42,677 bases of DNA from Motiliproteus sp. GTDB lineage: Bacteria; Pseudomonadota; Gammaproteobacteria; Pseudomonadales; Balneatricaceae. The position numbers were made by a program, and so were the translations under genes. Positions 17,295 to 27,540 of the stretch are shown piece by piece. Under the pieces are notes generated by a model. That model had not been told where the DNA came from. It worked only from the letters and a program-made list of their open reading frames with translations, and ran no database searches. Where the stretch lies: the NCBI GenBank assembly GCA_026196225.1, contig JAPHRD010000019.1:1-42677 (forward strand), read 5' to 3'. The stretch's first letter is position 1. Each line of letters starts with the position of its first letter.

Positions 17295-17455
17295 AACCGG
17301 ATAACCTCGGCTAGGCAGACATAACTCGTTGAATCCTGACGGACAGCTTTAAATTCAGATCGTCCGCTGAACACCCCTCAGTTTTTACTGGCTACTAAGC
17401 GTCATCAACTGCTAAATTAGACCTCTTGAAATCAAGGATTCTGAGGCTCAGCTGG

Positions 17456-19228
17456 ATGGCGCTATTTAACTGGAACACCTCTTTCGAAACCGGACACCAG
17501 CTCATCGATGAGCAGCATCAGAATCTGGTCAGATTGATCAATGAGCTGGATCGAGAGGTGGCGGTTGAACTACACAGCAAAGCCAGCTCAGCCCTGTTAA
17601 AGGAATTAATGGATTACACTGTCTACCACTTCTCCTGCGAAGAGGAGTTGATGGCCAATCAGCCATCAGTGTCGGCAGAGCACATCGAACTCCATCAAGC
17701 CGCCCACCAAAAATTTATCGCCGAAGTAACCAACTTGGCAGAAACAGGACTGGATGAGGAAAACACTCCCGTATTGTTCCGCTTTTTAGTGGAATGGCTG
17801 ATCCACCATATCCTTAAAACCGATAAACAACTGGTAGACGCCATCAACCAGCGCCCCCGCGGTGTAGCGGCCGAGAACCAACTACTCGATGCCTTGCACG
17901 AGAGTGAAAATCGTTTTCGTGCTCTGGCCGATTCGACCCCCGCTATGCTGTGGCTCTGCGACCCCGAAGGCAAACGAAGCTTCTTCAACGAATCCTGGTT
18001 AAAGTACACCGGTGCAACCCTCAACGATGTCAGTGAATATCGCTGGCAGACCTATATCCACCCGGAAGATCTTGATGATTATCTGGCGCTTTATCAGCGA
18101 GCCGTTGACGAGGGTATCGCCTACGAGACCGAGTTCCGGGTCAAAAACCACAGCGGCGAATTCCATTGGATCCACGAAAAAGCAACGCCACGTATGACCG
18201 GAGACGAGAATCCCATGGGGCTCAACGGCTCCTGCATGGACATCTCTGCGCTTAAGGAAGCGGAGGAGCTACAACGCTCTCTCAATGAAGAACTTCAGCG
18301 CAAAGTGGAAGAACGGACCATTGACCTCAAGCGCAAGAATAATCAACTTCACAGCTATCAAGATCAGCTGGAAAAAGAGAAAGCAGAACAGGCGCAGTTA
18401 ATTCGACAGCTTCAAGATGCCCAGCAACAGCTGGTGCAATCTGAAAAGCTGGCAGCCATCGGCCACTTGGCAGCCGGTGTTGCCCATGAGATCAACAACC
18501 CCATTGGCTATGTTAAATCGAACATCAGTACGCTGGAAAACTATGCCAGCGATATCACCCAATTGCTCCAGCAATATATGGCTATGAACTCCGCTCTATC
18601 AGCCGAAGCAGGCTATGAGAAGCTGCAAGCACAGCTAAAATCGGTGGAACCCGAGTATATTCTGGAAGACCTCCAGGACCTGCTTTCGGAAACCCATGAG
18701 GGGCTAAACCGAGTCCAACAAATCGTTAAGGATCTGAAAGATTTCTCCCGGATCGACAACAACGACTGGCAACTGGCAGATGTCCATGAATGCCTGGATA
18801 CCACCCTTAACGTTGCCCGTAACGAATTAAAGTACAAGGCAGAGATCCGCAAAGAGTATGGCGACCTTCCACAGATCGAGTGCCTGCCCATGCAATTGGC
18901 CCAGGTGTTTATGAATCTGCTGGTCAACGCAGGCCAAGCTATCAAAGAAAAGGGCACCATCACCCTGCGCACTCACTCATCTGATGATCAGGTAACCATC
19001 GAGATCGAAGATAGCGGCGTGGGCATTCCCGAATCGATGATTAAGGATATATTTGATCCTTTCTTCACCACCAAACCCGTGGGCAAAGGTACTGGTCTGG
19101 GCTTATCGATCTCCTACAGCATCATTCAGAAACACGGCGGTACAATCGATGTCGAGAGCACCCCCGATGTCGGCACCTGCTTTAAGATCACACTGCCCAA
19201 GGACCCCAAGACCGTCATCAATGACTGA
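17456..19228 (+). CDS. Soluble histidine kinase with bacteriohaemerythrin and PAS sensor domains
   Basis: A 590-residue cytoplasmic kinase. The N-terminal haemerythrin domain (1-130) keeps the di-iron ligand set: [11 protein letters not shown] (H21), [10 protein letters not shown] (H58, E62), HIELH (H76, H80) and [11 protein letters not shown] (H118, D123). This implies binding of O2 or possibly NO. A PAS domain follows (~148-270; [19 protein letters not shown]), then a long coiled coil (~270-330), a HisKA-type domain with [15 protein letters not shown] (H344), and a HATPase with VGIPESM and GTGLGLSIS. No membrane helix is seen. The start at 17456 is chosen over an upstream TTG (17426) because GAGG lies nine bases before it and MALFNWN is the classic haemerythrin beginning. 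No response regulator is adjacent. Confidence 0.92.
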
Positions 19229-19693: not shown

Positions 19694-19728
19694 ACATTGA
19701 TGCTGTTTTGCCCATCAGAAAACTTCCG

Positions 19729-19760
19729 GTAGTTCACAGGTCAGGTAGTTCACAGGTCAG
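19729..19760. repeat. Perfect 16-bp tandem duplication
   Basis: GTAGTTCACAGGTCAG occurs twice head to tail with no mismatch (19729-19744 and 19745-19760), across the 3' end of the minus-strand gene at 19734. Sixteen is not a multiple of three, so the second copy changes the frame and creates the present stop. Confidence 0.9.
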
Positions 19761-20322: not shown

Positions 20323-21066
20323 TCAGAGCACCCGCTTCTTTAGCTCGCCATAGAGACTCTGGTAAGACTTGCTAGCCACCCGACTGCTGGCAAAGGCAGA
20401 CACAGGCGCACGATGGATACCCATCTTTTCAATATCGGTGGAAAAGGGAATCGTTGTTTTGCAGAACTCTTTGTACTCTTTTCTCAGCTTGTCCATGGTG
20501 AAATTATGCAGCTTCTTACTGCGCTGGACCATGGAGAAAAACGGCAAGATTTTTTTACGGTTAAATCCCTGCTCCTCAAAGAACCCATTCAGTTGTTGAA
20601 AAGTGCGCTCTGACAGGGTGGTAGGGATCACTGGCACCAGTACATGATCCGCCGCTTTGAACACCGATTCCGACAATCGCGACAGATTGGGCGGGCAATC
20701 CAGCACCACCACATCGTACTCCCCTTTCACTGTTTTCAACGCCTTGCGCAATCGGGATTGAGAGTTTTTCATCCGGTCGAGAAAGACATCAAAATCCCTG
20801 AAAGTCATGTTGGCGGGTACCAGATCAAGATTATCGAAATCACTGCCCCGGATACTTTTCAGAAACCGTCCGGAATCCTGAAAGAAGGCATCGTCCACCA
20901 GCTTTTTAGAAGGCTTAACACGAAAATAAAAGCCCGATGCGCCCTGGGGGTCCAAATCACACAACAGCGTCCGATAGCCATTATTGGCAAAGGCGTGGGC
21001 AATGTTGACCGAAGAAGCGGTTTTGCCAACGCCCCCCTTGTTGCTGTAACAGGCTAGTATCTTCAT
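20323..21066 (-). CDS. Orphan ParA/MinD-family ATPase, coupled to a CHAD protein
   Basis: A 247-residue ParA-type ATPase. The deviant Walker A motif is SNKGGVGKTASS (signature K10, catalytic K15). Other motifs are CDLDPQG (switch I', 36-42), VVVLDCPPN (Walker B) and PTTLSERTFQQL. There is no N-terminal helix-turn-helix, as in small cargo-positioning ParA and McdA-like proteins. Basic residues in the C-terminal half could bind DNA non-specifically. No ParB and no parS-like repeats are nearby, so plasmid-type partition is unlikely. Its ATG overlaps the stop of the upstream CHAD gene (ATGA) and has AGAGGA as SD, implying translational coupling. Positioning of a CHAD-marked cargo is inferred. Confidence 0.9.
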   Translation of the reverse strand: MKILACYSNKGGVGKTASSVNIAHAFANNGYRTLLCDLDPQGASGFYFRVKPSKKLVDDAFFQDSGRFLKSIRGSDFDNLDLVPANMTFRDFDVFLDRMKNSQSRLRKALKTVKGEYDVVVLDCPPNLSRLSESVFKAADHVLVPVIPTTLSERTFQQLNGFFEEQGFNRKKILPFFSMVQRSKKLHNFTMDKLRKEYKEFCKTTIPFSTDIEKMGIHRAPVSAFASSRVASKSYQSLYGELKKRVL

Positions 21067-22652
21067 GCATTCCTCTTGTGGTCAAAACATGTTTCGAAAG
21101 ACTGATGTATCTCGGGGCTGTGGAATCTGGCAAAACAAGCCATCACCCGATCCCGCTCCTGCCGCTGCTGTTGATTGAGCACTAACCGCAAGGCACCGAT
21201 AGAATCAGCCACATCCAGATCAAGATTTCCGCGCTCCATCTTGCGCTTGAGGTAGTCGTGCAATGATTCCTGCTGAACCGAGAAATCGTTAAATCGGCCA
21301 AGGTTATCTTGTAGCCCCTTCAACGCCCGGATCTGTTTTTTAATCACTTTTTTGGGAAATAGCGGTGAAAAGAACTCCATCAGGTAACGCAACTTCTTAC
21401 ACTGGATTCTCAGGTCATGAACCTGCTCGTCCGGCGTCTCTGGTGTAATCTCCTTGGCAATTGCACAAACCTTACGGTATCGCTTCCAGATCGATGATTT
21501 CGCTAGCCCCAGCGCTGGTGTAGCAGCGTTCGGAGCATTTGAAAGCGGTTGCTGACTAAAGAATTTCTCTACCGAAAGGATTGCCTGCTTATAATCGTCG
21601 GACGCCAGCCATTTGGCCGTTTTACGCTGCTGATTACCTCGCTCGCGAGTGAAGTCCCGGAACATTTTTTCGAGGCCGCTATGAAGGTGCTTGGGCAGCA
21701 GTTTGAAATAACTCTCTTTTTCCAAGAGGTAGACATCCAGATCCCGCAACCGATTGGTTCGCCGCATCAGGTCTGCCAACTCAGCTTTCATTCGCTGGCT
21801 ATCTTGCTCGTTAAACACTTTGCTAAACAACGCAACTACCGACCGAACTCGCCGTAAGCTGACCCGATAGTCGTGGAGGAATTCACTATCAAGATCCTTA
21901 ATCGTCCCGGGCTCATTCAAGCGGGCAATGCTCAACATGCCACTGCATAGGCGACGCGCCAAATGCTGTGCTGGTTCATTATCGGCGATTTTAAAATCTG
22001 GCTTAGCACTGTAGAGACTGACCTTTAACCGCAGGCTTGGCAGCAATCGTTCAGGCATAGTCGCGTTAGATTGCAATCCGATAGCCGCCAGCGCCTCCTG
22101 CAAGCGAGCAAACGACTTCACATATCCACGTACTGGCGAGGCTTCGACCCAATGCAGTGTTTTGTCGTTGCCACTGAGTTGCCAGTGATTGATCCTTGCC
22201 ACAGTCTTCTTCTGGTCATCCAATAGCGCCATCTTCCGGCAGCCGATCTTAGCCGGATGCTGAGGCAAAAGGGCTCGGATCTCATCCGCTTGCAGCTGTG
22301 CCGACAAGCTATCGGGCAGCTCCATAATCAGTCCCGGTAACGCTATTTTGTCGTCACCCTGCAGCTTCAATCTGCCTTTTTCAAAAAGCCAGAACTGTTC
22401 ACCGGATTCGGCAACAAATAGCTCCTGCCCTGATTTCAACAGTTGATTATCAAAAGTATCTGCAGACTGGACTTTTTCGGCCGAAAGGTCGGGGATTTGC
22501 AACTGCAACTTGGGGGATAGCTTGCGGGCGAGCACTTGAGGATCAAATGAGCCAGTAATGAAATAGCGGCGGGGGGAATCGGATTCAGTGGAAATGTCTG
22601 TACTCAATTTGGTAGCTACCTTTATCGGCAACATGGCCGATCCATTCGACAT
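21063..22652 (-). CDS. CHAD-domain protein with divergent CYTH-like N-terminus
   Basis: A 529-residue protein. The C-terminal CHAD domain (about 228-515) shows the family's histidine/arginine helices: LHDYRVSLRRVRSVVALF, MRRTNRLRDLDVYL, VHDLRIQCKKLRYLMEFF and LKGLQDNLGRFNDF. CHAD domains bind polyphosphate and localise proteins to polyphosphate granules. The N-terminal ~200 residues look like a degraded CYTH (triphosphate tunnel) domain (DTFDNQLLKSGQELFV, then RKMALLDDQKKTVARI); most of its basic/acidic tunnel residues are not evident, so catalysis is doubtful. The ATG at 22652 follows an in-frame TTG. It is the first gene of a two-gene operon with the ParA ATPase. Confidence 0.88.
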   Translation of the reverse strand: MSNGSAMLPIKVATKLSTDISTESDSPRRYFITGSFDPQVLARKLSPKLQLQIPDLSAEKVQSADTFDNQLLKSGQELFVAESGEQFWLFEKGRLKLQGDDKIALPGLIMELPDSLSAQLQADEIRALLPQHPAKIGCRKMALLDDQKKTVARINHWQLSGNDKTLHWVEASPVRGYVKSFARLQEALAAIGLQSNATMPERLLPSLRLKVSLYSAKPDFKIADNEPAQHLARRLCSGMLSIARLNEPGTIKDLDSEFLHDYRVSLRRVRSVVALFSKVFNEQDSQRMKAELADLMRRTNRLRDLDVYLLEKESYFKLLPKHLHSGLEKMFRDFTRERGNQQRKTAKWLASDDYKQAILSVEKFFSQQPLSNAPNAATPALGLAKSSIWKRYRKVCAIAKEITPETPDEQVHDLRIQCKKLRYLMEFFSPLFPKKVIKKQIRALKGLQDNLGRFNDFSVQQESLHDYLKRKMERGNLDLDVADSIGALRLVLNQQQRQERDRVMACFARFHSPEIHQSFETCFDHKRNA

Positions 22653-22966
22653 CAAATTTACAGCACATCTTGATCACACAAATGATAGCCAATGTATATA
22701 CAAAACTCTAGCCCTTCAGATGAACTTTCTGTGAAATTATGTACCGCCATCTATCCACTAAAGCGCTTCCGAATAGCCTTAGGCACTCCCTATTCGACAC
22801 TCCCTAGATAGCACCTCAATAACCCAGCAGAATGATTCCTATCGCTGAGTATCATTATTAACCCGACCCATCTTTCGGTCCAATAGCAGCTGTCACCACC
22901 GAGGCGGTAAATCCCCTCACAGCCAGATAGCTTAGTTCAACAGCGGACAACGGGGAGAAATAAACA
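22653..22966. other. Intergenic region between the CHAD gene and gltS
   Basis: A 314-nt stretch between divergent genes, so it must hold both promoters. I see a short direct repeat CACTCCCTA (around 22785-22805) and an imperfect dyad AATGAT...ATCATT near 22832-22857. I see no convincing promoter, RNA gene or open frame. The gltS SD (GGGGAG) is at about 22951. Confidence 0.4.
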
Positions 22967-26397: not shown

Positions 26398-27540
26398 ATG
26401 TCCAATCAAAGATTGTTAAGTCTGCTTGCCACTGGCTTATTACTTTTGTCCACCAGCTTTGTACATGCTTTTGGCCTCGGTGACTTGGTCGATAAGGTGG
26501 CCGAAGGTGTTGAGAAAACTAAAGACGCTGTAGTAGATACCGTTTCGGGGCCTGACGACCAGCCTGCAGAGAAGAGCAACCAGCCTGCCCAGGCCTCTCG
26601 AGTGGGAGAGAACGAGGGGGCTTTCGACACACCTGTTGTGCCTAATAAATATATGAAAGGGCGATTCGTCAAAAGCCCCTACCCTGACATGCGAGGAGAC
26701 AGCCGCAAGTGGCAAGGGGTTACCAAAGTTAGTATCCCCAGATATTTCGTCTTCTTCGATAAAAAAGCAGGTCAAAGCGCTTCTGCTTCAGCAGGTTGGA
26801 CCGGCCCCACCGCGAATACACATGTCCACGCAGTGCTTCAAGGCGTTGACCAGGAAACACTGCAGGAGATTACCAACAAAGGTTACCAGGATTCCAAGAC
26901 CAAACTGGCCGCAACTGGATATCAGGTTTGGGGGGTTGAGGAGCTGAAAAACACCAACGAATACCAAACATGGGATACCGGTTCTTACCCTGACATAGAT
27001 AGTGCTAGCGCAAAATTTGTCGCAAAAGGAATGCGTGATTTCAGCATGTTCAAGCAGTATTTTCGACACGGCAATCTGATGAATGAAACTCAAGCGGCTC
27101 TGGTAGAGCCCAAGATCATGGTGAACTTTGCCGCCTTCGGCAAGCAAACCTCCAGCCACGTGGGCTTCCAGCAAAGCACCGCCTCCGCCGAAGTATCCAT
27201 GGGTCCATCCGTACACGCCAACGCATCACTATTTGGATCGACTCTCAAAACCTGCGACAAACACGGCCAGTGTTTCGGTGATGTGATCAATATCCAAACT
27301 GGCCAACCGGTCTACAGCGTCAAACCCTTTGGAACCATCAGGGACACGACGTCCAGTGCAGTCAAAGTTGTTCAGGGGGTAACTAACGCCCTGGCAATGG
27401 TAAGCGGAACAAGTACACGCAGCGATTCAGAAAAAACCGTTTATGCTGACTCCAAGGCATTCAAGGAAGCAGCCTTGGAAGTCATCTATGAAACGAACAC
27501 CCGGCTGATCAACAAGTTGCTAGAAGGAACTGATAGTTGA
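26398..27540 (+). CDS. Secreted protein of unknown function (380 aa)
   Basis: I do not recognise this protein. A signal peptide is clear (hydrophobic LLSLLATGLLLLSTSFVHA, cleavage after about residue 24), with no lipobox cysteine. Next is an amphipathic stretch (GLGDLVDKVAEGVEKTKDAV), a low-complexity linker (about 50-70) rich in Q, P and E, and then a globular domain to the end. Its central part repeats short AFGK/QTSS/VGFQQS-type segments of beta character. It is a single gene and a terminator-like hairpin follows. It may be periplasmic or outer-membrane associated. Confidence 0.6.
   Translation: MSNQRLLSLLATGLLLLSTSFVHAFGLGDLVDKVAEGVEKTKDAVVDTVSGPDDQPAEKSNQPAQASRVGENEGAFDTPVVPNKYMKGRFVKSPYPDMRGDSRKWQGVTKVSIPRYFVFFDKKAGQSASASAGWTGPTANTHVHAVLQGVDQETLQEITNKGYQDSKTKLAATGYQVWGVEELKNTNEYQTWDTGSYPDIDSASAKFVAKGMRDFSMFKQYFRHGNLMNETQAALVEPKIMVNFAAFGKQTSSHVGFQQSTASAEVSMGPSVHANASLFGSTLKTCDKHGQCFGDVINIQTGQPVYSVKPFGTIRDTTSSAVKVVQGVTNALAMVSGTSTRSDSEKTVYADSKAFKEAALEVIYETNTRLINKLLEGTDS

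Follow-up and report, generated by a model that had tools for sequence, protein, structure and literature searches.

A conserved CHAD–ParA gene pair in Motiliproteus sp.: a candidate system for positioning polyphosphate granules

The CHAD–ParA locus of Motiliproteus sp.

The window analysed here is the whole 42,677-nucleotide stretch of Motiliproteus sp. contig JAPHRD010000019.1 (assembly GCA_026196225.1, positions 1 to 42,677). It carries, on the reverse strand, a gene for a CHAD protein followed by one for a ParA-type ATPase, with a sodium/glutamate symporter gene lying divergently upstream of the pair. The features are as follows.

20323–21066, reverse strand: ParA-type ATPase gene (247 aa, deviant Walker A motif KGGVGKT, Soj fold, pI 9.7)
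21063–22652, reverse strand: CHAD protein gene (529 aa from the ATG; 530 aa from a TTG at 22655)
21063–21066, reverse strand: ATGA, the four-base overlap of the CHAD stop and ParA start
21987–22652, reverse strand: N-domain of the CHAD protein, residues 1–222 (predicted model; candidate ParA-docking part)
21261–21926, reverse strand: CHAD domain with the polyphosphate-binding residues H260, R263, R267, R303, R422 and Y423 (numbered from the ATG at 22652)

Pfam assigned the two products to AAA_31 (ParA, E value 1.6e-36) and CHAD (PF05235, E value 1.3e-60). The four-base overlap described in an earlier, sequence-only reading is present, and a ribosome-site-like AGAGGA was noted by eye shortly 5′ of the ParA start. 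The same reading took the ATPase to be an orphan, and this held: no helix-turn-helix or ParB family was found in ParA at E≤0.1, no ParB family was found in the six locus proteins scanned, and one parS consensus had no match in the whole window with up to three mismatches allowed. Between 19650 and 23000, there were no inverted repeats of at least 14 bases and three direct repeats of that length, with two copies each. Promoter and terminator scans were uninformative (6 hits versus 3.4, sd 1.9, in shuffles and 1 versus 3.0, sd 1.6, respectively). Genome-wide, Motiliproteus encodes seven AAA_31 matches, one of them beside a frame judged by eye to be ParB-like, together with one CHAD and one PPK1.

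Elsewhere in the window, we observed a protein with hemerythrin, PAS and histidine kinase domains (17426–19228), a tandem pair of 16-base repeats that are 94 % alike (19725–19756) and a 380-aa protein (26398–27540) that has a signal-like start on inspection by eye and matched no Pfam family at E≤1e-5.

Conservation and gene context of the pair

ParA–CHAD adjacency extends well beyond this genome. In a scan of named genomes, a CHAD gene lay directly upstream on the same strand at 28 of the best 80 of 578 ParA relatives, and these loci span seven phyla, assigned by record title or NCBI rank: Pseudomonadota (alpha, beta, gamma and Mariprofundales), Thermodesulfobacteriota with Dadabacteria, Lentisphaerota, Chlorobiota, Actinomycetota, Acidobacteriota and Planctomycetota. 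Many of the linked hosts are metagenome bins; others carry no such label, among them the records of Nitrosomonas europaea, Donghicola and Prauserella and complete ones of Lentisphaerota. Six Paracoccus plasmid records have adjoining ParA and CHAD matches (annotation examined for three). In the Chlorobiaceae group, where 59 of the 61 genomes searched had a match, the pair is linked at 19 of 20 fetched loci, including L150, in which a gene 100 % identical over 292 residues to the crystallized CHAD protein CtCHAD is directly followed by a ParA of the window's family; Chlorobaculum tepidum is named as a host of the pair through this identity.

Within the host's own order, ParA was detected at E≤1e-35 in 73 of 390 genomes, and CHAD was present in 52 of these versus 84 of the other 317. 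Among the 30 best fetched ParA loci of the order, the top 14, the window among them, have CHAD directly upstream, and the next 16 have no CHAD within the approximately 1.5 kb fetched per side. In a fifteenth case (G057), the gene downstream of CHAD is a ParA whose match is split over two overlapping frames.

A sample of 369 gammaproteobacterial genomes was then searched with profiles of ParA and of the N-domain of its CHAD partner, and here ParA–CHAD adjacency is far above chance. The N-domain reached at least 70 bits in 41 genomes, 37 of which have ParA, and ParA lies directly downstream at 37 of the 42 N-domain places. Conversely, the N-domain was found in 36 of the 37 genomes with a strong ParA (at least 326 bits) and in 1 of the 20 with a weaker one, or in 37 of 57 ParA genomes if the 326-bit cut is dropped. 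The Fisher p value for co-occurrence (2e-43) uses cuts chosen after the scores were seen and profiles trained on linked pairs, and, like the other co-occurrence statistics, ignores phylogeny. Of the 48 genomes matching at E≤0.001, 41 survive the N-domain cut; ParA at E≤1e-50 is missing from the seven that do not (G553, G668, G689, G697, G754, G803 and G848), and ParA therefore occurs in 37 of 48 when all are counted. Weak second N-domain matches in G607 and G730 were also dropped. The exceptions comprise four genomes that encode an N-domain but gave no ParA match at E≤1e-50 (G864, G696, G604 and G728), of which G864 has a PhoU-like gene after the CHAD gene in place of ParA, and one with a strong ParA and no N-domain match (G602).

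The overlap is exactly four bases in 36 of 63 linked pairs, with gaps from −29 to 57, when the ParA start is placed nine residues before KGG wherever a start codon lies there. CHAD and ParA distances are correlated (r=0.80; largest of 2000 Mantel permutations, 0.28) over 43 of the 63 pairs, the 19 Chlorobiaceae-group pairs and L086 being left out. In both proteins, the closest relatives of the window's copies, from Nitrosomonas, Candidimonas, Donghicola and Paracoccus, cut across bacterial classes, suggesting that the pair may be transferred as a unit.

The notion that every ParA relative is linked to CHAD proved wrong: fetched relatives from Halomonadaceae, Alcanivoracaceae, sphingomonads and Chitinophagales have no CHAD directly upstream. 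Of 25 genomes examined from the 52 with an unlinked ParA, 16 encode CHAD somewhere, in one case (L078) approximately 4 kb downstream of ParA, and 9 returned no CHAD match. The unlinked CHADs of five Methylococcales and two Acidobacteria are of the long form with the N-domain. In Halomonas almeriensis (L071, 6001–7979), ParA is convergent with a short CHAD gene without the N-domain.

Genes of polyphosphate metabolism recur beside the pair. Up to three genes per side were scanned at the 28 linked loci of the best 80 (142 genes; 12 of the 154 listed, at L040 and L041, were already annotated and left out), returning six CYTH, five histidine phosphatase, four PPK1 and two PhoU matches. None of these families is among the 25 commonest of the 124 neighbours at 23 of the 52 unlinked loci, where one CYTH was seen, at L078. 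PPK1 lies within 6 kb at at least five of the 28 linked loci (L052, L057, L070 and L072 by Pfam, L056 by coordinates) and is encoded in 23 of the 28 host genomes; several of the five in which it was not found are metagenome bins. Plasmid pCP157_03 of Paracoccus marcusii carries pstC-pstA-pstB-phoU-phoB, next three small genes, of which the second is reversed, and then CHAD-ParA-CYTH-NUDIX-CYTH.

Three further arrangements of ParA relatives were also observed. At L195 (171–3186, genome G683), which has no CHAD, a ParA relative with a GTG start begins 7 bases after the PPK1 stop, giving another type of link to polyphosphate. On Marinobacter plasmid pMAQU02 (L044, 1673–6747), a sister ParA lies near an acetoacetyl-CoA reductase gene, phbB, and a pyruvate kinase gene, a possible link to PHB. 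Downstream of the Chitinophagales-type ParA, there is a 243-aa gene (L064, L075, L079, L081 and L082), which in L075 encodes a putative esterase. Esterase is also the Pfam match of 5 of the 124 unlinked neighbours.

The ATPase and its CHAD partner

The predicted model of ParA (pLDDT 90.8) is Soj-like, with Soj entries scoring TMq 0.87–0.90 in Foldseek. Its closest neighbours in both fold and sequence are Soj/ParA proteins; McdA appears in the fold and profile lists, with chains 17–19 % identical, and BcsQ is present at a lower rank. The highest NCBIfam scores belong to partition families and fall far below cut-off. All 29 aligned ParA rows keep both Walker lysines, K10 and K15, and the pI is at least 8.3 in 28 of them. 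The columns of HpSoj K227 and K230, which we take to be DNA contacts, are F208 and D211 in the window and hold lysine or arginine in none of the 29 rows (F, Y, A, N or Q in the former, mostly D or E in the latter); hence, nucleoid binding, if any, must use other residues.

A quick IQ-TREE run on 60 rows (52 chosen from a 121-row set plus eight references) separated a 49-row group of orphan ParAs, linked and unlinked, from the other ParAs (SH-aLRT 99), with warnings of long reference branches and of an outgroup that was not one side of a branch. Outside the group fell the host's own ParA beside the ParB-like frame, other ParAs from its genome and plasmid ParAs of Photobacterium, which adjoins a replication gene, and Azospirillum. 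Plasmid-borne ParAs of Sphingomonas (L199) and Marinobacter (L044) fell inside the group and outside the CHAD set. The window ParA belongs to an all-CHAD set of 19 (support 96); FastTree on all 121 rows, with one (L125) in a wrong frame that was corrected for IQ-TREE, gave an all-CHAD set of 28 (support 96) and 8 changes of the CHAD-linkage label versus 35.7 in shuffles. The CHAD-linked ParAs do not form a single clade in either tree.

For the partner, the nearest solved structure is CtCHAD of Chlorobium (C. tepidum), available with and without polyphosphate. Lorenzo-Orts et al. report weaker polyphosphate binding when H253/R256/R260 are mutated, as well as for changes at R296 and at R418/Y419 (PMC6537752). 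Counted along the alignment, these correspond to H260, R263, R267, R303, R422 and Y423 in the window, and every one of the 28 aligned CHAD partners (L086 left out) keeps all six. This conservation supports polyphosphate binding by the CHAD domain, and the protein would be expected to sit on granules in this host.

The sequence-only reading had also described a worn-down CYTH-like N-terminus. Pfam did not bear this out as a family assignment, since nothing before the CHAD domain, CYTH included, matched at E≤0.1. The resemblance survives in the predicted model (pLDDT 88.7), in which residues 1–22 are disordered and are followed by a strand-rich fold matching triphosphate tunnel (TTM) enzymes, and so does the wear: the first 60 residues of the window protein hold no ExExK motif, nor do those of 27 of the 28 aligned partners. 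The TTM-CHAD tripolyphosphatase ygiF shares the two-domain order; however, the window N-domain lacks ExExK, and full-length ygiF matches the model only loosely (11 % identity, rmsd 22).

Among the seven ParA-adjacent CHADs shown (six linked loci taken as examples, plus L183), a profile of this N-domain scored 82–180 bits in all but L103 (23 bits), which was omitted from the profile. Scores were in the same range for the unlinked CHADs of the five Methylococcales and two Acidobacteria. CHADs from genomes of the order without ParA (E≤1e-35) and from genomes with a weaker, unlinked ParA gave no match apart from one of 16 bits. The tracking is in part orthology by construction. We recognize a new feature, a predicted, divergent triphosphate-tunnel N-domain that tracks largely with ParA and is a candidate for the part on which the ATPase docks. 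It is not required everywhere, as the ParA gene at L194 overlaps a CHAD gene without it. The CHAD partners at L190 (2318–4999) and L191 (346–2412) are N-terminally extended, with the N-domain match starting approximately 370 and 280 residues in, respectively, and the extensions gave no Pfam match.

A short basic N-terminal segment that could stimulate ParA had been anticipated; it is not conserved, with at most eight residues preceding the first strand in 20 of 28 partners; six of the 28 rows of the CHAD alignment (L055, L058, L062, L074, L084 and L094) begin at our cut rather than at a called start. Over their last 16 residues, 19 partners carry a net positive charge, 3 are neutral and 6, the window's own included, are net negative. 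A basic activator peptide was therefore rejected at both ends, being conserved at neither in the 28 partners.

Proposed granule positioning and alternative explanations

The genomic premises of the sequence-only reading were right, and stronger than one sequence allowed. An overlapping pair that recurs in distant bacteria, often by polyphosphate genes, makes a strong candidate for granule positioning, and we regard a two-gene, ParA-driven positioning system for polyphosphate granules as the best explanation and, on balance, probably the correct one. This reading rests on the gene pair, its conservation, the predicted folds, the polyphosphate-binding residues and the polyphosphate gene context; contact between the N-domain and ParA, stimulation and movement are the three steps that we infer.

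The ParA dimer and the nucleoid cycle assumed for it are those of the ParA family in general. In the proposed mechanism, the CHAD domain would coat the granule, while the decayed triphosphate-tunnel N-domain, perhaps with the tails, would recruit and switch the ATPase. ATP-bound ParA dimers would hold the nucleoid and be cleared near the granule, so that granules would climb the ParA gradient, keep apart and be shared out at division, as carboxysomes are by McdAB. The available text of a 2025 review likewise presents McdAB as a ParA-type ATPase with a cargo-bound adaptor (PMC13052382); the adaptor there is McdB, whereas here it would be a folded polyphosphate-binding CHAD protein. More tentatively, with the balance somewhat against it, ATP-driven segregation of polyphosphate granules may be widespread, a dead triphosphatase domain having been turned into a ParA-docking and activating module that links motor to polymer.

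Several observations count against positioning: the many ParA relatives without CHAD alongside, the five exceptional gammaproteobacterial genomes, the CHAD without N-domain at L194, the five linked hosts in which PPK1 was not found, the two non-basic Soj lysine positions of the ATPase and the termini of the partners. A positively charged disordered N-terminus is 'shown, or suggested' for ParA/MinD partners in the Discussion of PMC10241942, and it is not conserved among the 28 CHAD partners.

The alternative that fares best is that ParA, like BcsQ, uses ATP to switch the assembly or activity of its enzymes, here those of polyphosphate (PPK1, CHAD or CYTH), and does not move granules. PPK1 near the linked loci, the PPK1–ParA arrangement at L195, the presence of BcsQ, a protein of cellulose synthesis, among the fold neighbours and the non-basic positions of the two Soj lysines all suit such a switch. 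However, BcsQ ranks below Soj/ParA, the ParA proteins remain basic and CHAD is a commoner partner than PPK1, which leaves the switch unlikely, though worth keeping in mind. Less probable again is a static tether, in which CHAD–ParA would fix granules in place on the nucleoid or the polyphosphate synthase without dynamic gradients, in the manner of PhaM or AlgP. The review, in the text available, describes PHB and polyphosphate spacing proteins as DNA-binding tethers (PMC13052382), but the invariant Walker lysines would be superfluous for a passive tether. That a plasmid or chromosome partition ParA stands beside CHAD by chance is very improbable: despite the Paracoccus plasmid copies, the NCBIfam scores and the two plasmid-borne ParAs in the wider group, it is disfavoured by the tree, which sets the ParA apart from the one beside a ParB-like frame and from that of the Photobacterium plasmid, and by gene context, with no ParB family or parS match in the proteins and window scanned and a conserved CHAD partner.

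Parts of the positioning system have been described before. AlgP of Pseudomonas aeruginosa shares the cargo, and its loss gives fewer, enlarged polyphosphate granules in the available text of two sources (PMC13052382, PMC9239181); it differs in being a histone-H1-like DNA-binding protein with no ParA. CtCHAD and the phosins share the CHAD domain and the six residues, and the CtCHAD-identical gene has a ParA beside it, yet CtCHAD was published as a polyphosphate binder and no ParA partner is named in the portion available (PMC6537752). The Acidithiobacillus folD-ppk-parA-CHAD cluster, with parA similarly placed by ppk and CHAD, had already been noted; in the available parts of the two reports, its ParA is read as a plasmid/chromosome partition protein and in terms of cAMP signalling, with no idea of positioning (PMC10892726, PMC6416229). 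A word search of the main text of the H. neapolitanus study found neither polyphosphate nor CHAD. No published proposal of ParA–CHAD positioning was found in the partly available literature searched, a scope that excludes bioRxiv and most subscription journals.

In the text available, the 2025 review states that the proteins positioning polyphosphate in Caulobacter have not been identified, takes AlgP as its polyphosphate example and leaves energy use to be seen (PMC13052382). The CHAD–ParA pair supplies a testable ATPase and adaptor in Nitrosomonas europaea, Paracoccus marcusii and, by sequence identity, Chlorobaculum tepidum, and one partner is already solved as a polyphosphate-bound crystal structure. 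If the positioning reading is true, a polymer granule would join the cargos of ParA-type ATPases.
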